A stretch of 64,000 nucleotides of DNA, from NCBI RefSeq assembly GCF_000336875.1, contig NZ_AOJK01000036.1, forward strand, positions 129,587 through 193,586. Reading direction: 5' to 3'. A program made the position numbers and the translations under genes. Origin of the DNA: Halorubrum californiense DSM 19288 (GTDB lineage Archaea > Halobacteriota > Halobacteria > Halobacteriales > Haloferacaceae). Below are positions 52,941 through 61,947 of the stretch, piece after piece. The stretch's first letter is position 1. Each line of letters begins with the position of its first letter. Below the pieces are notes generated by a model. The model had not been told where the DNA came from. It was given only the letters and a program-made list of their open reading frames with translations, and searched no databases.

Positions 52941-53039
52941 CGCCCGGGACTGGACGGAGAGCGGCGACCGTGGGCGGGGGACGCTCGGTCCGCGGGTACC
53001 CGGACAAAGTATACCTTTCTGCGCCGGCCATTGGAGGCC

Positions 53040-54995
53040 ATGGACGACCCCGGGACCGACGGTCGGCTCGTCGAGGGGGACGAGGACGCCGTCCCGCCGT
53101 CGGCCGACTTCCGGACGCGAGCCGCCGCGGGCGACCCCGCGGTGTACGAGCGGTTCGACCGCGAGGGCCCGGAAGCGTGGCGGGCGGCCGCGGACCTCCT
53201 GACGTGGGACCGCGAGTACGAGACCGTCCTCGACGACTCTCAGCCACCCTTCTACGAGTGGTTCCCGGACGGCCGGCTCAACGCGTCGGTGAACTGCGTC
53301 GACCGCCACCTCGACGACCGCCGGAACCAGCTCGCGATCCGCTGGTTCGGGAAGCTGGGCGAGCGCCGGTCGTACACGTACCTCGACCTCCACCGCGAGG
53401 TGAACGCGGTCGCGGCCGGGCTCCGCGACCTCGGCGTCGAGGAGGACGACGTGGTCACGCTGTACCTGCCGATGATCCCGGAGCTACCGATCGCGATGCT
53501 GGCGTGCGCCCGGATCGGCGCGCCCCACAACGTCGTGTTCGCGGGGCTGTCGGCCGAAGCGCTCGCGACGCGGATCGACGCGGCTGACTCCGAGTTCCTG
53601 ATCACCTGCGACGGCTACTACCGGCGCGAGGACGCCTTCAACCAGAAGTCGAAGGCGGACAACGCGCGGATCCGCGCCGAGAGCGAGCCGTCGGCCGCGG
53701 TCGTCGTCGACCGCCTCGGCGACGAGCTGGCCGTCTCGCTCGGCGACGACGAACACGAGTACGACGCGCTCGTCGACGCGCACGACGGCGAGACGGTCGA
53801 GCCGGTCGCCCGCGACGCGACCGACCTGCTGTTCGTGATGTACACCTCGGGGACGACCGGGCGGCCGAAGGGGGTCGAACACGCCACGGGCGGCTACCTC
53901 TCGCACGTCGCGTGGACGACGCGGAAGGTCTTGGACGTGCGCCCCGACGACACCTACTGGTGCGCCGCCGACATCGGCTGGATCACCGGTCACTCCTACG
54001 GCGTGTACGGCCCGCTCGCGACCGGGACGACCACCGTGCTGTACGAGGGGTCGCCCGACTACCCCGACCGCGACCGCGTCTGGGACCTGATCGAGCGCAA
54101 CGCGGTGAGCGTCTTCTACACCTCGCCGACGGCGATCCGGTCGTTCATGAAGTGGGGCGCGGAGTACCCCGAGTCGCACGACCTCTCGTCGATCCGCCTG
54201 CTCGGGACGGTCGGCGAGTCGATCACCCCGAAGGCGTGGCGCTGGTACCGCGAGCACGTCGGCGGCGGCGACGCCCCCGTCGTCGACACGTGGTGGCAGA
54301 CGGAGACCGGGGCCATCGCGCTCGCCACGCTCCCCGGGATCACGCCGATGAAGCCGGGGAAGGTCGGCCCGCCGCTGCCGGGGATCGACGCCCGCGTGGT
54401 CGACGAGGACGGCGAGCCCGTCGCCCCGGGCGAGTCGGGGTACCTCACGCTCGCGTCGCCGTGGCCCGGGATGCTGCGCGGCCTCCGCGAGGGCGACGAG
54501 CGCTACCTCCGGGAGTACTGGCTGGAAGGGGAGGACGGCTGGCGCTACCGGACCGGTGACGGCGCGACGGTCGACGAGGACGGCTACGTCACGATCCTCG
54601 GGCGCGTCGACGACGTGATCAACGTCCGCGCCCAGCGGTTCAACACCGGGGAGCTGGAGGCGGCCATCGTCGACGCCGACGGCGTGACCGAGGCCGCGGT
54701 CGTCGGCGACGGCGACGGGCACATCGTGGCGTACGTGACGACCAAGAGCGGCGTCGAACCCGGCGAGGCGCTCCGCGACGCCATCGCGGACCGGCTGGCG
54801 AGCGCCGTCGGCGACGTGGCCCGCCCGGACCGGATCGTGTTCACTCCCGAACTCCCGAAGACGCGCTCCGGGAAGATCATGCGACGGCTGCTGGAGGACA
54901 TCGCCCGCGGCGAGGAGTTCGGCGACGTGAGCGCGCTGCGTAACCCAGAGGTCGTCGGCGAAATCGAGTCGACGGTCAAGGGAACGCGGAACTGA
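53040..54995 (+). CDS. Acetyl-CoA synthetase paralog (AMP-forming) with altered A8 hinge motif
   Basis: A 651-residue acyl-CoA synthetase closely related to the Acs encoded at 57141. It has the A3 motif YTSGTTGRPKGVEHATGGY, the acetate-pocket Trp in DTWWQTETG, and the catalytic/acetylatable Lys in LPKTRSGKIMRRLL. The A8 region, VSGHRLGTMEIE in the neighbour, is VRAQRFNTGELE here: the conserved Gly of the CoA tunnel is replaced and only the Arg is kept. It may use another acyl group or have altered thioesterification. A TTG three codons upstream is an alternative start. Confidence 0.85.
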   Translation: MDDPGTDGRLVEGDEDAVPPSADFRTRAAAGDPAVYERFDREGPEAWRAAADLLTWDREYETVLDDSQPPFYEWFPDGRLNASVNCVDRHLDDRRNQLAIRWFGKLGERRSYTYLDLHREVNAVAAGLRDLGVEEDDVVTLYLPMIPELPIAMLACARIGAPHNVVFAGLSAEALATRIDAADSEFLITCDGYYRREDAFNQKSKADNARIRAESEPSAAVVVDRLGDELAVSLGDDEHEYDALVDAHDGETVEPVARDATDLLFVMYTSGTTGRPKGVEHATGGYLSHVAWTTRKVLDVRPDDTYWCAADIGWITGHSYGVYGPLATGTTTVLYEGSPDYPDRDRVWDLIERNAVSVFYTSPTAIRSFMKWGAEYPESHDLSSIRLLGTVGESITPKAWRWYREHVGGGDAPVVDTWWQTETGAIALATLPGITPMKPGKVGPPLPGIDARVVDEDGEPVAPGESGYLTLASPWPGMLRGLREGDERYLREYWLEGEDGWRYRTGDGATVDEDGYVTILGRVDDVINVRAQRFNTGELEAAIVDADGVTEAAVVGDGDGHIVAYVTTKSGVEPGEALRDAIADRLASAVGDVARPDRIVFTPELPKTRSGKIMRRLLEDIARGEEFGDVSALRNPEVVGEIESTVKGTRN

Positions 54996-55166
54996 CCGCG
55001 GCGTCCGTCGCGGCCCGCGCCCGGGCCGCGGCGCTCGCGGATCGGTATTATTTCGCAGCCGAGCTGAGAACCGAAACCGATTGCTCGGTGACTGGAACCG
55101 TGTAGCGGGTCGTCTGGACGGAGCGGCCACTCCGGCCGTTACGGTCGCGGTTACCGGAACAGTTTT

Positions 55167-55194
55167 GTTTCGGCTGCTTGTTGAGTTCCGAAAC
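55167..55194. promoter_or_regulatory. GTTTCGG/CCGAAAC dyad just upstream of the regulator gene
   Basis: GTTTCGG (55167-55173) and CCGAAAC (55188-55194) form a perfect 7-bp inverted repeat with a 14-bp spacer, ending 2 nt before the ATG at 55197. A third copy, CCGAAAC, occurs at 55071-55077. The position would allow autoregulation by the encoded regulator. The arms are short, so this remains a candidate. Confidence 0.4.
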
Positions 55195-55196
55195 GA

Positions 55197-56981
55197 ATGG
55201 TCGACGGCCTCGACGCGGACGCCTACGACGCGCTCGTCACCGCCGCGGAGACGTATCGCGCGGCGCTCGTCGTCAGGCTGGCGGGCGAGGCCGGTCTCCG
55301 CACCGAGGAGATAACCCGCGTCGCTCCGCGGCACCTACGCGAGGCGGAGTCCGTCGCGGGCGCGCGCCTCCTCGCGGTTCCCGCGGATGAAGACGAGAGC
55401 GGAGGGGGTAGCTCCCCCCGGTCTGGCGGCGAATCCGTCGACCGCGAGACAGTCGTTCCGGCGTCGCTGGCGGCCGACCTCGACCGGTACGCGACGAGCG
55501 AGGGGCTCGACGACGACGAGCCGTACGTCGACATCTCGCCCCGGCGCGTCCAGATGATCGTGCGCGAGACCGCGGCGCGGGCGGCCGGTCTCACCGACGG
55601 CGTGCTCGACGAGCGGGTCACCCCCAGCTCCCTCCGGAAGACGTTCGCGCGGCGGCAGCTCGTCGACCGCGACGTCGACCCGCGAGCGGTCCGCGACGCC
55701 GGCGGCTGGGAGTCGCTGGGCACGCTCGACCCGTACCTCGACCCGCTCGACGGCGAGGCGCTCGCGGCCGCTATCGCCGGCGACGAGCGGGCCGGCGACG
55801 CGTCCGCGGAGCGGGCCGGGACGGCCGTCTTACCGGGGTTCGAGGCGCTCGCGGACCCCGGGTCCGCGGCCCCTGCGGCGGCCGTCTCCGCCGGACTGGT
55901 CGAGGCAGACCGCTGGGCCGAGGCGTGGGTCGTCCGCCGGGCGGTCGGCGGCGAGCGGGCCGACGTGGCCACGGCGGCGGGCGTCGACCCGGAGACGCTC
56001 GCGGACCGCGGCGTGACCGCCGGTGGGCCGTGGCTGGACGCCATCGCGGACGGCGCGCCCGCGGCGACCGACGGTCGTCAGGGGACCGGGGGCCGACCCG
56101 GCCTCGCGGTCCCCGCGGCCTACGAGGGCGTGGTCCACGGTGCGCTCTGCGTCGTCGCGGCCGACGACGACCCGGTCGGCGACCCCGAACGCCGAGCGCT
56201 CGCCGCTCTCGGGGGGTGTCTCGGCCGCGCGATCACCGCGGACCGGTGGCGGGAGCTGCTCCACTCCGACGCGGTCACCGAGGTCGAGTTCCACACGACC
56301 GACGACCGCGCATTCCTCGCCCGCGCGAGCGACCGGCTGGACTGTCGGATCGAACTGGCGTCGACCGTCGACGTCGACGACGACATCTCCCGGGCGTACC
56401 TCTCCGTCGACGGGGTCCGCCCGCAAGACTTTGCGGCGGTCGTCGAGTCGTCGACGGGCGTCTCCGACTTCCGAGTGATAGAGACCGGCGAGGACGGCTG
56501 TTCGGCGTCGGTCCGCCTCGCGGACGGGTCGCTCGTCAGGGCGCTCATCGACCACGGCGCGACCGTGCGCGACGCGTCGGCAGCCGATGGCCGGGTCCGC
56601 GTCGTCGCGGACTTCCCCGAGGGGACGAACGTCCGCCCCGTCGCGGACGGACTCCGCGACCGGTTCGCGGACGTCAGGCTCGCGAGCAAGGAGTCGGTCG
56701 CGCGCTCGCCGCGCACGGAGTCGTCGCTGCGGGACGGGGTCGCCGACCGGTTCACCGACCGCCAGTGGGCCGCGCTGTCGGCGGCGTACCACGGCGGCTA
56801 CTTCGACTGGCCGCGCGGGAGCACGGCCGAAGAGGTGGCCGACGCGATGGGCGTCTCGTCGCCGACGTTCCACAACCACCTCCGGAAGGCCCAGCGCGCG
56901 CTTCTCGACGGCGTCTTCGAGGACGACGCGGACAGACCGATTCGGGAGGGCGACGAGCGGGCGACCCCGCCCGGCGGGTGA
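55197..56981 (+). CDS. Regulator with degenerate tyrosine-recombinase domain, GAF-like region and Bat-type HTH
   Basis: A 594-residue protein. Residues about 1-185 resemble a tyrosine-recombinase catalytic domain (LRTEEITRVAPRHL; VTPSSLRKTFARRQL; GGWESLGTLDPYL), but the HxxR box reads SSLR and so lacks the His; it probably binds DNA or serves as a scaffold. Residues about 215-360 are GAF-like. About 375-510 match the bacterioopsin-activator-type domain (VTEVEFHTTDD ... LDCRIELASTVDVDDD). The C-terminus is an HTH-10 (FTDRQWAALSAAYHGGYFDWPR, MGVSSPTFHNHLRKAQRALL). Between two acyl-CoA synthetase genes it likely controls acetate genes (inference). Confidence 0.82.
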   Translation: MVDGLDADAYDALVTAAETYRAALVVRLAGEAGLRTEEITRVAPRHLREAESVAGARLLAVPADEDESGGGSSPRSGGESVDRETVVPASLAADLDRYATSEGLDDDEPYVDISPRRVQMIVRETAARAAGLTDGVLDERVTPSSLRKTFARRQLVDRDVDPRAVRDAGGWESLGTLDPYLDPLDGEALAAAIAGDERAGDASAERAGTAVLPGFEALADPGSAAPAAAVSAGLVEADRWAEAWVVRRAVGGERADVATAAGVDPETLADRGVTAGGPWLDAIADGAPAATDGRQGTGGRPGLAVPAAYEGVVHGALCVVAADDDPVGDPERRALAALGGCLGRAITADRWRELLHSDAVTEVEFHTTDDRAFLARASDRLDCRIELASTVDVDDDISRAYLSVDGVRPQDFAAVVESSTGVSDFRVIETGEDGCSASVRLADGSLVRALIDHGATVRDASAADGRVRVVADFPEGTNVRPVADGLRDRFADVRLASKESVARSPRTESSLRDGVADRFTDRQWAALSAAYHGGYFDWPRGSTAEEVADAMGVSSPTFHNHLRKAQRALLDGVFEDDADRPIREGDERATPPGG

Positions 56982-57046: not shown

Positions 57047-57103
57047 TGCGACCTCCCTCCCGCTCGGCCGATATATATCACGATTTTTCGTATTTAGCGT
57101 CAG

Positions 57104-57123
57104 CGTTTATATGCCGATATCGG
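57104..57123 (+). promoter_or_regulatory. acs promoter with palindrome between TATA box and start codon
   Basis: TTTATA at 57106-57111 is 30-35 nt before the ATG at 57141. Directly after it lies the perfect 10-bp palindrome CCGATATCGG (57114-57123), where a bound protein would block initiation. A related GCCGATATATATC occurs at 57067-57079. This makes the site a candidate operator for acetate-responsive control. Confidence 0.45.
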
Positions 57124-57140
57124 TTGGATACGACCGTACC

Positions 57141-59135
57141 ATGACAGAGGGAGACGGCCAACTGGAAGCGAGACTCGCGGAACAGGAGGTATTCGAGCCG
57201 TCGGAGGAGTTCGTCGAGCAGGCGAACGTCTCCGACCCGGAGATATACGAGGAGTTCGAAGAGAACTGGCCCGAGTGCTGGGAGACGGCCGCCGACCTGC
57301 TGGAGTGGGAAACCGACTACGACCAAGTGCTCGACGACGGGAACCCGCCCTTCTACGAGTGGTTCACGGGCGGCGAGCTGAACGCGTCGGCGAACTGCCT
57401 CGACCGACACCTCGACGAGCGCGGCGACGAGGCCGCCATCGAGTGGGTCGGCGAGCCGGTCGACGAGGACGATCGCACGTACACGTACGAGGAACTCCAC
57501 CGCGAGGTGAACGAGTTCGCGGCCGCCCTTCGGGAGCAGGGCGTCGAGGAGGACGACGTGGTCACGATGTACATGCCGATGATCCCGGAGCTGCCGATCG
57601 CGATGCTGGCCTGTGCGCGCATCGGCGCGCCCCACAGCGTCGTGTTCGCCGGGTTCTCGGCCGACGCGCTCGCGACGCGGATGAACTCCGCGGACTCCGA
57701 GTACCTCGTCACCTGCGACGGCTACTACCGCCGCGGCGACCCGCTCGACCACCTCGACAAGGCGAACGAAGGGCTCGCGGGCGTCGACCACGACACGACC
57801 ACGGTGGTCGTCGACCGGCTCGGGCCGAACGGCGACGACTTCGGCCACGACCTCGGCGACGACCAGATCGACTACGACGACCTCGTCGCGGAACACGAGG
57901 GCGCCGAGGTCGAGCCGGTCACCCGCGACGCCGAGGACATGCTGTTCCTGATGTACACCTCGGGGACGACCGGACAGCCGAAGGGCGTGAAACACACGAC
58001 CGGCGGCTACATGTCGTGGGTGTCGTGGACCTCGCAGTCGGTCCTCGACATCAAGCCGGATGACACGTACTTCTGTTCGGCCGACATCGGCTGGATCACG
58101 GGGCACTCGTACATCGTCTACGGGCCGCTCTCGCTCGGAACGACGACGATGATGTACGAGGGGACGCCGGATCACCCGGAGCGCGACCGGCTCTGGGAGA
58201 TCGTCGAGGAACACGAGGCGACCCAGCTGTACACCGCCCCGACGGCGATTCGGGCGTTCATGAAGTGGGGCAAGGAGTTCCCCGACCGTCACGACCTCTC
58301 CTCGCTGCGGCTGCTCGGCACGGTCGGCGAGCCGATCAACCCCCGCGCGTGGAAGTGGTACTACAAGCACATCGGCGACGAGGAGTGCCCCGTCGTCGAC
58401 ACGTGGTGGCAGACCGAGACCGGCGGGATGATGGTGACGACGCTGCCCGGCGTCAAGGACATGAAGCCCGGCGCCGCGGGACCGCCGCTGCCGGGGCTCG
58501 ACGTTCAGATCCTCGACACGCTCGGCGACGAGGTAGAGCCCGGAAAGGCCGGCTACCTCACGGTACAGAAGCCGTGGCCCGGCATGCTCCGGACGCTGTA
58601 CAACAACGACGAGCGCTACATCCAGGAGTACTGGGCGGAGTACTCCGACACCGACAGCGACGACCCCGACGACTGGGTGTACTTCCCGGAGGACGGCGCG
58701 AAGATCGACGACGACGGCTACATCACCGTCCTCGGTCGCGTGGACGACGTGCTCAACGTCTCCGGCCACCGGCTGGGGACGATGGAGATCGAGTCGGCGA
58801 TCGTCGGCGTCGAGGGCGTCGCCGAGGCCGCGGTGGTCGGCGGGAACCACGACATCAAGGGCGAGGCGGTGTACGCCTACGTGACGACCGAAGACGGTTA
58901 CGAGGGTACCGACGACCTCCGCGACGCGATCGTCGCGGGCGTCGAGGACGCCATCGGCCCGATCGCCCGGCCGGAGCAGGTCGTGTTCACCCCTGACCTG
59001 CCGAAGACGCGGTCGGGGAAGATCATGCGTCGCCTGCTTGAGAACATCGCCGACGGCGAGGAACTCGGGAACACGAGCACGCTGCGGAACCCCGAGATCG
59101 TCGAGGAGATCCAGCGGAAGGCCGACGCCGAGTAG
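57141..59135 (+). CDS. acs: Acetyl-CoA synthetase (acetate--CoA ligase, AMP-forming)
   Basis: A 664-residue canonical Acs that activates acetate with ATP and CoA. The N-terminal DPEIYEEFEENWPECW and FYEWFTGGELNASANCLDRHL are typical. Motifs: A3 YTSGTTGQPKGVKHTTGGY, acetate pocket Trp in VVDTWWQTETGG, A8 NVSGHRLGTMEIESAIV, and the C-terminal catalytic Lys in LPKTRSGKIMRRLLENI. ATG 57141 fits the TATA box at 57106; an in-frame ATG at 57111 would sit inside the promoter. Downstream, a T-run near 59150-59156 may act as terminator before the symporter genes. Confidence 0.94.
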   Translation: MTEGDGQLEARLAEQEVFEPSEEFVEQANVSDPEIYEEFEENWPECWETAADLLEWETDYDQVLDDGNPPFYEWFTGGELNASANCLDRHLDERGDEAAIEWVGEPVDEDDRTYTYEELHREVNEFAAALREQGVEEDDVVTMYMPMIPELPIAMLACARIGAPHSVVFAGFSADALATRMNSADSEYLVTCDGYYRRGDPLDHLDKANEGLAGVDHDTTTVVVDRLGPNGDDFGHDLGDDQIDYDDLVAEHEGAEVEPVTRDAEDMLFLMYTSGTTGQPKGVKHTTGGYMSWVSWTSQSVLDIKPDDTYFCSADIGWITGHSYIVYGPLSLGTTTMMYEGTPDHPERDRLWEIVEEHEATQLYTAPTAIRAFMKWGKEFPDRHDLSSLRLLGTVGEPINPRAWKWYYKHIGDEECPVVDTWWQTETGGMMVTTLPGVKDMKPGAAGPPLPGLDVQILDTLGDEVEPGKAGYLTVQKPWPGMLRTLYNNDERYIQEYWAEYSDTDSDDPDDWVYFPEDGAKIDDDGYITVLGRVDDVLNVSGHRLGTMEIESAIVGVEGVAEAAVVGGNHDIKGEAVYAYVTTEDGYEGTDDLRDAIVAGVEDAIGPIARPEQVVFTPDLPKTRSGKIMRRLLENIADGEELGNTSTLRNPEIVEEIQRKADAE

Positions 59136-59242: not shown

Positions 59243-59722
59243 ATGACAGATAATACCTCACGCGAACGAGACGACGGCGTCACTGATGGTGGCCGCGCAG
59301 TTGACGACGCGGCCGCCGAGGGTGACCGCGCAACTGACGACGCGGCCACCGACGGCGGCGTCGCCTCCGCCGGGGCCGCACAGACGCACCACAACACCGA
59401 CTACCTCGGAGCGGAAGTGAACATCCTGAACCCGAGCACGCCGTACATGCGCGATCACCTGCGCATCGTGTGGTCGGGCTTCGCTATCTGGGTCCTCGCG
59501 GTGTGGGGGCCGGTGACGCTGACGCGGCTCGCCCCGGAGGGGATGACGAGCCAGATGCCGATCCTCCAGTTCCCGCTCCACTACTTCCTCGTCGCGTTCG
59601 GGGCACCGACCAGCGCGCTCATCTTGGCGTTCTGGTACTCGCGCAAGCGGGACGCGCTCGACGAGAAGTACGGCATCGAACACGGTGACGTCGCGGCGAC
59701 CGACGGAGGGACCGACGAATGA
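59243..59722 (+). CDS. DUF4212-type small subunit of a sodium:solute symporter
   Basis: A 159-residue membrane protein. Residues about 50-145 contain the DUF4212 core with two transmembrane helices (IVWSGFAIWVLAVWGPVTL; FPLHYFLVAFGAPTSALILAFWY), ending in SRKRDALDEKYGI. This small subunit normally accompanies the large symporter encoded next. The N-terminal about 45 residues are an acidic extension with two 11-residue repeats (GGRAVDDAAAE, GDRATDDAATD); the same sequence ends the large subunit. The gene overlaps the large-subunit ATG by 4 nt. The leader (59158-59242) is CA-rich and has no Shine-Dalgarno. Confidence 0.88.
   Translation: MTDNTSRERDDGVTDGGRAVDDAAAEGDRATDDAATDGGVASAGAAQTHHNTDYLGAEVNILNPSTPYMRDHLRIVWSGFAIWVLAVWGPVTLTRLAPEGMTSQMPILQFPLHYFLVAFGAPTSALILAFWYSRKRDALDEKYGIEHGDVAATDGGTDE
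59285..59349 (+). repeat. 65-bp direct repeat, copy A (N-terminus of the small symporter subunit)
   Basis: This stretch matches 61402-61466 at 62 of 65 positions, in the same orientation and the same reading frame. It is itself a 33-bp tandem duplication encoding 11-residue units. It sits in the part of the protein before the first membrane helix. Confidence 0.85.
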
Positions 59723-61482
59723 CGGCGAGCTCGCTCCTCCTACAGAGCGACCTCCTGCCGGAGGCGCTCAACATCTCGTTCAAGATCGGGCCGGCGCTGC
59801 TCGTGATCGGGATGCTCGGGCTGTTCCTCACCATCGGGTTCGTCTTCCGCGTGGCCGACACCGACGACATGTGGGTCGCCGGCCGTTCCATCGGGAACGT
59901 CGAGAACGGGATGGCGATCGGTGCGAACTGGATGTCGGCGGCATCGTACCTCGGCATGGCCGCGTCGATCGCGCTGGCCGGCTTCTACGGCCTCGTGTTC
60001 GTCGTCGGCTGGACGACGGGCTACTTCATCCTGCTCATCTTCCTCGCCGCGCAGCTGCGCCGGTTCGGGAAGTACACGGCGCCGGACTTCGTCGGCGACC
60101 GATTCAACTCCGACACCGCGCGCGCAATCGCGGCGGTGACGACGTTCCTCATCGGCTTCGTCTACGCCATCGGGCAGGCGAAGGGGATGGCGCTGGTCGG
60201 CCTGTACATCTTCGGTAACTACGGCGGTCTCATCCCCGGTCTGGACGGGTATCAGGTGATGGTCGTCGCCATGATGGTCGTCACCGTCGGCTACCTGACG
60301 CTGTCCGGGATGCTGGGCGCCACGAAGAACCAGGCGGTCCAGTACGTCATCCTCATCCTCGCGTTCGTCGTCGGGCTGTTCGTCGTCGGCTGGACGAACG
60401 GCTACTCGACGGTGCTGCCGCAGTTGGAGTACGGCGCGCTGATCAGTCAGCTCGGTAGCGAGTTCTCCCAGCCGTTCGCCTCGTCGGGCTACTACCTCTG
60501 GGTCGCGACGACGTTCTCGCTGATCGTCGGCACCTGCGGGCTCCCGCACGTACTCGTCCGGTTCTACACGGTCGAGAGCGAGCGGACGGCCCGCTGGTCG
60601 ACTGTCTGGGGACTGTTCTTCATCTGCATCCTCTACTGGAGCGCGCCCGCGTTCGCGGCGTTCGGGACCGACCTCTACTCGCAGAACGTCGGCGCGACGT
60701 ACGGCGACCCCGGCATGACGGGCGCGGCCAGCGAGGTCATCGTCGTGCTTGCGGCGCAGCTGTCCGGGCTCCCGTCTTGGTTCGTCGGCATCGTCGCGGC
60801 GGGCGGTATCGCCGCGGCCATCGCGACGGTCGCGGGGCTGTTCATCGCCGGCTCCTCGGCGATCAGCCACGACATCTACACGAACATCATCAACGAGGAC
60901 GCGACGCAGCGCCAGCAGATCCTCGTCGGCCGCCTCTCGATCGTCGCGCTCGGCGCGCTGACCACGCTGGCTGCGCTCAACCCCGCGTCGTCGATCGCGG
61001 CGCTCGTCGGGTACGCGTTCTCGCTCGCCGGCTCCGTCCTGTTCCCGATGTTCTTCCTCGGCATGTGGTGGGAGAACGCCAACCGCCAGGGCGCGCTCGC
61101 CGGCATGACCACCGGGCTCACGCTCTGGTCGATCCCGATGATCAACCAGATCGTCCCGACGTACATCGGCTCGCTCGAAGCGCCGCTGTCGACCGGACTC
61201 GCGCAGGCGATGCCCGCCATCGGCTCGGCGCTCATCACGCTCCCCGTCGTGTTCGTCGTCACCATCGTCGTCTCGATGGCGACCGACGAGCCGTCGCTGG
61301 AGACGAAGCGGATCGTCCGGCAGTGTCACAGCCCTGAGCCGATGGGCCAGCAGGAGACCGCCGAGGACGTCGTCGCCGACGGTGGCGAAGACGTGGCGAC
61401 CGATGGTGGCCGCGCAACTGACGACGCGGCCGCCGAGGGCGACCGCGCAACTGACGACGCGGCCACGGAGACGGAGGAGTAA
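59719..61482 (+). CDS. Sodium:solute symporter, acetate/VC_2705-type large subunit
   Basis: A 587-residue transporter with about thirteen transmembrane helices. SSF-family segments are MWVAGRSIGNVENGMAIGAN (about 53-72), AAQLRRFGKYTAPDFVGDRF and GTCGLPHVLVRFYTV. It resembles ActP-like monocarboxylate symporters that need a DUF4212 partner, encoded just upstream with a 4-nt overlap. Context with two acyl-CoA synthetases suggests acetate or a short monocarboxylate as substrate. The cytoplasmic C-terminal tail (about 545-587) is acidic and contains GGRATDDAAAE and GDRATDDAATE, repeating the N-terminal extension of the small subunit. Confidence 0.9.
   Translation: MTASSLLLQSDLLPEALNISFKIGPALLVIGMLGLFLTIGFVFRVADTDDMWVAGRSIGNVENGMAIGANWMSAASYLGMAASIALAGFYGLVFVVGWTTGYFILLIFLAAQLRRFGKYTAPDFVGDRFNSDTARAIAAVTTFLIGFVYAIGQAKGMALVGLYIFGNYGGLIPGLDGYQVMVVAMMVVTVGYLTLSGMLGATKNQAVQYVILILAFVVGLFVVGWTNGYSTVLPQLEYGALISQLGSEFSQPFASSGYYLWVATTFSLIVGTCGLPHVLVRFYTVESERTARWSTVWGLFFICILYWSAPAFAAFGTDLYSQNVGATYGDPGMTGAASEVIVVLAAQLSGLPSWFVGIVAAGGIAAAIATVAGLFIAGSSAISHDIYTNIINEDATQRQQILVGRLSIVALGALTTLAALNPASSIAALVGYAFSLAGSVLFPMFFLGMWWENANRQGALAGMTTGLTLWSIPMINQIVPTYIGSLEAPLSTGLAQAMPAIGSALITLPVVFVVTIVVSMATDEPSLETKRIVRQCHSPEPMGQQETAEDVVADGGEDVATDGGRATDDAAAEGDRATDDAATETEE
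61402..61466 (+). repeat. 65-bp direct repeat, copy B (C-terminus of the large symporter subunit)
   Basis: A near-identical copy of 59285-59349 (three mismatches), also in frame. Because the two copies flank most of both symporter genes, recombination between them would delete about 2.1 kb and fuse the ends. Confidence 0.85.
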
Positions 61483-61485
61483 TCC

Positions 61486-61947
61486 ATGTACGAACGCATC
61501 CTCGTCCCCACGGACGGCAGCGACGTCGCGGAGGCCGCCGTCGACCACGCGCTCGACCTCGCGGAGAAGTACGACGCCGAGGTCCACGCGCTGTACGTGG
61601 TCGACATCGACTCCGTGAACTTCAGCCTGGGCACCGAACAGGTCGACCGGCTCAAGCAGGGCCGGTTCGACGAGATGGGCGAACTGAAAGAGCAGGCCGA
61701 CGAGGCGACCGGCGTGGTCGCCGACCGCGGCGCCGAACGCGGCGTCGACGTCGTCGAACACGTCTCGGGCGGTCGGCCGCACAAGGTGATCGCCGACTAC
61801 GCCGAGGACAACGACGTGAGCCTCATCGTCATGGGGAGCCACGGCCGCGCGGGCGTCCGCCGCGCGCTGCTCGGGAGCGTCACGGAGCGCACCCTGCGCT
61901 CGACGCACGTCCCCGTCCTCGTCGTCGACTACCTCGACGAGGACTGA
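61486..61947 (+). CDS. Universal stress protein, UspA family
   Basis: A 153-residue single-domain Usp. It starts MYERILVPTDGSDVAEAAVDHAL and has the ATP-binding motif MGSHGRAGVRRALLGSVTERTLR (Gly-rich loop G-x2-G-x9-GS). The gene begins 3 nt after the symporter stop and so belongs to the same operon; pairing of Usp proteins with transporters is common in haloarchaea and suggests allosteric or stress-linked control of uptake. Precise role unknown. Confidence 0.9.
   Translation: MYERILVPTDGSDVAEAAVDHALDLAEKYDAEVHALYVVDIDSVNFSLGTEQVDRLKQGRFDEMGELKEQADEATGVVADRGAERGVDVVEHVSGGRPHKVIADYAEDNDVSLIVMGSHGRAGVRRALLGSVTERTLRSTHVPVLVVDYLDED

Follow-up and report, generated by a model that had tools for sequence, protein, structure and literature searches.

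A tyrosine-recombinase fold with lost catalytic residues in a Bat-type protein of the haloarchaeal acetate gene cluster

The Bat protein of Halobacterium salinarum carries a GAF domain and a C-terminal HTH and activates a nearby operon via an upstream element (PMC3184054). Domesticated recombinases serving as transcription regulators have already been described in eukaryotes, and the Crypton-derived tyrosine-recombinase (YR) proteins comprise KCTD1, WOC/ZMYM and QRICH1 as well as Gcr1 and Cbf2 (PMC3212892). In prokaryotes, an inactivated tyrosine recombinase that recognises DNA is represented by TnsF, the target selector of Tn6022 (PMC10293859). Cre recognises 13-bp half-sites placed around an 8-bp core; position 10 of the half-site holds a C-G pair with which its Arg259 makes contact (PMC6486577). 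The acs7-HVO_A0155-ssf-uspA28 transcript of Haloferax volcanii appears when acetate is supplied but is absent with glucose or casamino acids, and acetate is taken up by the symporter (ActP) (PMC7746861). An archaeal or bacterial host gene regulator derived from a dead recombinase was not found in the literature searched, in which few subscription journals were covered, nor was a relevant report on Bat-type proteins in acetate regulation or joined to an integrase. Here we describe a haloarchaeal protein that joins a recombinase fold to the domains of a Bat-type regulator within an acetate gene cluster.

Domain structure and loss of catalytic residues

The 64,000-nucleotide stretch of Halorubrum californiense DSM 19288 DNA that was analysed (the window) contains on its forward strand an open reading frame of 594 residues (55197..56981), for which the ORF listing and Pfam gave the order pseudo-YR, GAF, BAT and HTH_10. 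By sequence comparison Halorubrum is the closest group, with identities of 91-92% for the best named relatives. The tyrosine-recombinase catalytic-type domain covers residues 10-190 (55224..55766) and is followed by a linker and GAF-fold sensor-like domain (residues 201-356, 55797..56264), the BAT domain (residues 358-512, 56268..56732) and the HTH_10 DNA-binding domain (residues 519-570, 56751..56906), all on the forward strand. Pfam detected Phage_integrase at residues 113-183 with an E-value of 9.3e-8, above the cutoff, BAT with 1.7e-40 and HTH_10 with 6.3e-20. The GAF_2 match at residues 240-346 was weak (E 0.008); this part is clear by its fold, the full-length model matching the solved GAF domains 3ci6, 2vjw and 2vks with a probability of 1.00. 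The fusion to GAF-like and HTH-10 domains proposed in an initial annotation of the locus is thus borne out. A PAS domain is absent from the window copy according to Pfam. The RefSeq name for relatives of the fusion is "bacterio-opsin activator domain-containing protein".

The same annotation had called the N-terminal domain recombinase-like and its HxxR box devoid of the His, and both statements hold. A PDB sequence search with this domain matched the archaeal Xer recombinase 4a8e (E 1.9e-6). A structure model of residues 1-207, built from 36 orthologs, reached a mean pLDDT of 91.5 and resembled XerA, XerH, Cre and integron integrase with Foldseek probabilities of 1.00 each and E-values down to 1e-6; the TM-scores against these recombinases were moderate, about 0.6 by query. 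A separate N-terminal core-binding domain was found neither by Pfam nor in the model, the protein starting directly at the catalytic domain. In the window copy the catalytic signature reads R-S-R-W-Y, with R35, S144 in place of the HxxR His, R147, W171 and Y180, and the Lys of the hairpin is missing. The losses of Lys and, often, of Tyr had escaped the initial annotation, as had the non-coding DNA, where the strongest evidence lies.

For the catalytic columns, the fused family was compared with its nearest relatives in haloarchaea, standalone proteins of about 200 residues that match PHROG 216 integrase and likewise have no core-binding domain, though they keep the catalytic residues. In 29 of these relatives, R-I, the hairpin Lys, His, R-II and W were present without exception and Tyr in 28. 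Among the fused proteins R-II is invariant, but the His survives in only 3 of 105 rows (L048, L056 and L057), a Lys in the hairpin segment was found in 4 of 89 distinct proteins and in none of the other 85, and Tyr is present in about four fifths and lost in about a fifth, many of the latter being orthologs with intact synteny. R83, R116, R117, M120, L146 and R147 do not vary in the fused domain. Three of them belong to the class-conserved stretch R116-R117-x-Q119-M120 that precedes the HxxR box; R116, R117 and M120 are fixed and Q119 nearly so in fused proteins, whereas these positions vary in the standalone proteins. All 55 fused domains fall on one side of a tree branch with a support of 100/99, as expected of a single recruitment. 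The dN/dS ratios in Halorubrum amounted to 0.20-0.25 for the recombinase domain, 0.14 for BAT and 0.02 for HTH_10. Purifying selection on a domain that has lost its catalytic residues argues that it is kept for a role other than recombination, and the recruitment of a recombinase fold into a Bat-type regulator, as first proposed, agrees with the fold, the catalytic loss relative to the standalone proteins and the single fused clade. Judged from its residues, the N-terminal domain is very probably no longer a recombinase. Residual DNA cleavage may persist, as R-I, R-II and W, and in most cases Y, are still present.

Small haloarchaeal tyrosine recombinases of about 200 residues, with all catalytic positions intact and devoid of a core-binding domain, occur in variable copy number (L007 at G000:C25:147154-147684, and L123-L151). 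Another standalone member of this group, in the genome of the window, is broken (L015 on G000:C35): its N-terminal half matches, and the catalytic C-terminal part is lost.

Gene order and the acs2 promoter element

The fusion gene lies between two acetyl-CoA synthetase genes, all genes of the cluster being on the forward strand. Upstream is acs1, encoding an AMP-forming enzyme (53031..54995, with an internal ATG at 53040 as possible protein start), and downstream follow acs2 (57141..59135), a DUF4212 protein that is the small partner of the symporter (59243..59722), the ActP-like sodium:solute symporter (SSF; 59719..61482) and a universal stress protein (UspA; 61486..61947). The start of acs2 was set from the conserved MTEGDGQLEA; the mechanical ORF start at 57111 overlaps the TATA box, and conservation favours 57141. 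The position between two Acs genes and upstream of an acetate-type symporter, as initially annotated, was confirmed and recurs class-wide: about 93 of the 145 Halobacteria genomes sampled carried the fusion, as a rule once per genome, and the order acs, fusion, acs, DUF4212, SSF symporter, UspA was found in most of about 40 loci from 11 families. The same gene order is annotated on a Haloferax plasmid. A fusion and gene order that recur together in most Halobacteria families are not a chance arrangement. In Haloferax volcanii acs7 is HVO_A0156 and acs8 is HVO_A0158, so that HVO_A0157 is, by position, the likely ortholog; it is not mentioned in the literature searched. Genomes without the fusion still have acs, hence the fusion is not needed for acs as such.

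In Natrialbaceae the orthologs (L112, L113-L120) are longer, about 740-860 residues, and the one at L112:7641-9866 has the order YR-PAS-GAF-BAT-HTH_10, with PAS_9 at an E-value of 1.7e-12. With a PAS domain between its recombinase and GAF parts, it resembles a whole Bat protein preceded by a recombinase. An apparent lack of the fusion in this family was discarded: the initial matches began at about residue 230, and the fusion is there with the inserted PAS domain. One chromosome of Haladaptatus pallidirubidus carries the fusion twice, at loci about 550 kb from each other that gave identical match statistics (L249, L250).

Directly upstream of the acs2 TATA box, and touching it, is the element TTTTTCGTATTTAG-N8-TTTA (57084..57109, forward strand). 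Across families its class consensus is about TTtTGnATAATTAG-N8-YTTA, again in contact with TATA. In its strict form, YTAG-N7-9-YTTA, it was present at 41 of 49 fusion loci and at none of 30 acs orthologs from genomes without the fusion; the misses were mostly slight variants. Because the YTAG pattern had been derived from the fusion loci themselves, the weight lies on the 0 of 30 and on the low background. In a larger set, the element occurred within 520 bp after the fusion gene at 116 of 128 loci, compared to 3% of random stretches. Genomes with and without the fusion share families and some genera, and therefore one split does not explain the association, although these counts ignore kinship. 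In one locus where acs2 is missing (L065), the element stands before the symporter instead. Two loci without the fusion (L163 and L167, in G003 and G012) show a near-version, TTAG-N10-CTTA, possibly after a recent gene loss. Elsewhere in the genome of the window, three further elements of this type were counted, not more than for the reversed control, and none of them precedes an obvious acetate gene.

Since its presence tracks the fusion, the element appears tied to the fusion gene. The simplest reader of a site next to TATA would be an HTH_10-type activator, and the chances that the HTH_10 domain of the fusion reads it are in our estimation evenly balanced. We presume a likeness to the bop element, which was not used as evidence. 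Class-wide synteny and a promoter element that tracks the gene both support the initial proposal of a dedicated acetate regulator, and we are confident that the fusion acts as such on this cluster.

Paired dyads before the fusion gene and their candidate reader

When the regions before the fusion gene were aligned within Halorubrum, the conservation was concentrated in a pair of dyads of the form TTTCG-N16-CGAAA. The proximal candidate operator (55168..55193) lies where the core promoter is expected and stops 3 bp short of the ATG, and the centre of the distal one (55051..55076) is 117 bp away. The exact N16 dyad occurs four times in the whole 3.68 Mb genome, two of these at the fusion, against one occurrence of the reversed control pattern. 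The dyad was then tested over 993 kb in families not used for its discovery, with gaps from 8 to 25; exact matches numbered 19 at gap 15 and 38 at gap 16, and 0 to 4 at each other gap. With at most one mismatch, at least one dyad was present at 143 and two dyads at 115 of the 147 loci with enough upstream DNA, which include many close relatives and a few loci retrieved more than once and therefore do not give independent counts. The spacing of the two dyads clusters near 96, 107, 117 and 128 bp. When each genus and mode contributed a single value (61 in all) and periods between 7 and 16 bp were scanned, this spacing was fitted best by a period of 10.5 bp with R = 0.59, which 0 of 5000 jittered sets reached. 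As 10.5 bp is the helical repeat of DNA, the two dyads keep the same face. The TTTCG dyad is absent from the promoters of acs1, acs2 and the symporter, and no dyad with gap 15 or 16 was found next to the standalone recombinase genes. An apparent absence of dyads from Natrialbaceae turned out to be an artefact of misplaced starts and of the N15 gap, and repeat-like pairs upstream in the symporter and fusion sets proved to be acs 3'-end coding sequence.

The geometry of the dyads points to the recombinase domain as their reader. The Cre arrangement places 18 bp between the contacted base pairs, the same distance as separates the C-G pairs of TTTCG-N16-CGAAA, and a separation of two helical turns between half-sites fits recombinase sites. 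The helix holding R116, R117, Q119 and M120 is presumably the equivalent of the Cre Arg259 helix, as we read it from the XerA alignment. Covariation between this recognition helix and the operator was suggestive in one genus and not clean. In that genus (g34, with L058, L105 and L271) the half-sites are degenerate, with GGAAA or AGAAA for CGAAA; L058 and L105 carry Q119R, but the half-sites are altered as well in their relative L271, which has Q119, and an ortholog with Q119A (L050) has normal half-sites. On balance, we favour the YR domain as reader of the dyads.

Alternatively, the TTTCG dyads, and perhaps also the acs2 element, could be read by HTH_10, and the YR domain would then serve only as a scaffold for dimers or tetramers or as a non-specific DNA clamp. 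HTH_10 is the most conserved part of the protein and the expected DNA-binding end of Bat-type proteins, and conservation of R116, R117, Q119 and M120 is no proof of base contact. However, the genome of the window has many other HTH_10 genes and the exact dyad precedes none of them; it is thus not a general HTH_10 site, and its rarity in a genome so rich in such proteins is at odds with this reading, as are the recombinase-like distance of the half-sites and an acs2 element that is completely different from the dyad. We consider a reading by HTH_10 unlikely.

Less likely again is a reading in which the dyads belong to the ordinary promoter or serve an unrelated repressor as its operator, with the fusion acting only via HTH_10. 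CGAAA resembles the haloarchaeal BRE, and the location of a site before a gene is no proof of binding by the product of that gene. Against this stand the fixed 15/16-bp gap, the presence of two copies, their helical phasing across genera and their near-absence from the rest of the genome; in Halorubrum, moreover, the right half-site adjoins the ATG and is therefore too far downstream for a BRE.

An active recombinase that inverts or excises the segment of about 117 bp between the dyads as a switch would fit the nearby pair of dyads with their recombinase-type geometry and the R-I, R-II, W and Y kept in the window copy, but it is very improbable given the loss of His and Lys in nearly all orthologs, the loss of Tyr in many syntenic ones and the central 15-16 bp, which are unlike between the two dyads where strand exchange would require likeness. 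Equally improbable is a decaying relic in an ordinary Bat paralog that stands by chance among acs genes: the catalytic residues do drift and N-terminal identity between families is only about 40%, yet purifying selection, the six invariant residues, the confident fold and the class-wide synteny all contradict it.

With the YR domain as the favoured reader of the dyads, the initial suggestion that the protein contacts DNA at both ends finds two distinct candidate sites, the dyads and the acs2 element; the binding itself and the pairing of each domain with its site are what we infer. Two YR domains would bind each TTTCG-N15/16-CGAAA dyad as Cre-type recombinases do on inverted half-sites, and two bound dimers could interact across about 95-130 bp in a cooperative or looped complex. 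The proximal dyad lies directly before the start codon, over or beside the TATA-like region, which from the sequence would be a place for a repressor. Because it overlies the core promoter, the fusion protein would repress its own gene, and such autorepression seems to us fairly probable. At the other end, HTH_10 would bind the YTAG element beside TATA and activate acs2-DUF4212-actP-uspA, as Bat acts on bop, and the GAF/BAT part might sense a signal related to acetate by which the two activities are switched or coupled. In outline, a domesticated recombinase that represses its own gene while its HTH_10 domain activates the acetate-uptake operon is the picture that we find the most plausible. 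A more specific version, in which a synapse has become a repression loop, is offered tentatively and is rather doubtful: four dead recombinase domains would bring together, but not cut, two loxP-like operators separated by about 9-12 helical turns and so switch their own promoter, the other end of the protein activating the acetate-uptake operon.

Relation to known recombinases and regulators

The domain combination is already visible in a Pfam scan; what is new are the candidate operators with their phasing, the way in which the fused domain contrasts with active standalone enzymes, and the link to the acs2 element. If the looped assembly is true, a recombinase-type assembly has gained a use as a regulatory loop. 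In Haloferax, a tractable model, we propose that the fusion supplies the regulator still missing for the acetate-induced acs-actP operon. Moreover, active ancestor-like enzymes, the dead fused form and candidate DNA targets coexist, which makes the path from an enzyme of mobile elements to a regulator testable site by site.

With Bat the fusion shares the GAF domain and the C-terminal HTH, the activation of an operon being suggested here only indirectly, by a promoter element that tracks the gene. Bat, however, is without a recombinase domain and acts on bop and light genes, whereas the window copy is without PAS and has the acetate cluster as its context and dyads as candidate operators. The Crypton-derived proteins offer the parallel of a dead YR domain kept for non-recombination roles, often beside another DNA-binding domain in transcription regulators. 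They are eukaryotic and come from another YR lineage, and no specific function could be given to the domain in PMC3212892, in contrast to the conserved candidate operators found here; a DUF3504-type YR gave no Pfam match in the fusion protein at E-values up to 1. TnsF differs by its role in transposition, its zinc fingers and its tandem core-binding domains and is not a host gene regulator; neither zinc fingers nor tandem core-binding domains were found in the fusion by Pfam or in the model, and its context is the acetate cluster. Cre and loxP have in common with the fusion the fold and the 18-bp spacing of contacted C-G pairs, but the fusion has lost the catalytic residues, is without the core-binding domain and shows no sign of strand exchange. 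Finally, the nearest relatives are the standalone haloarchaeal integrases of PHROG 216, of the same length as the fused domain and equally without a core-binding domain, which differ from it by their intact catalytic residues, the absence of a fusion, a variable copy number and the lack of adjoining gap-15/16 TTTCG dyads.
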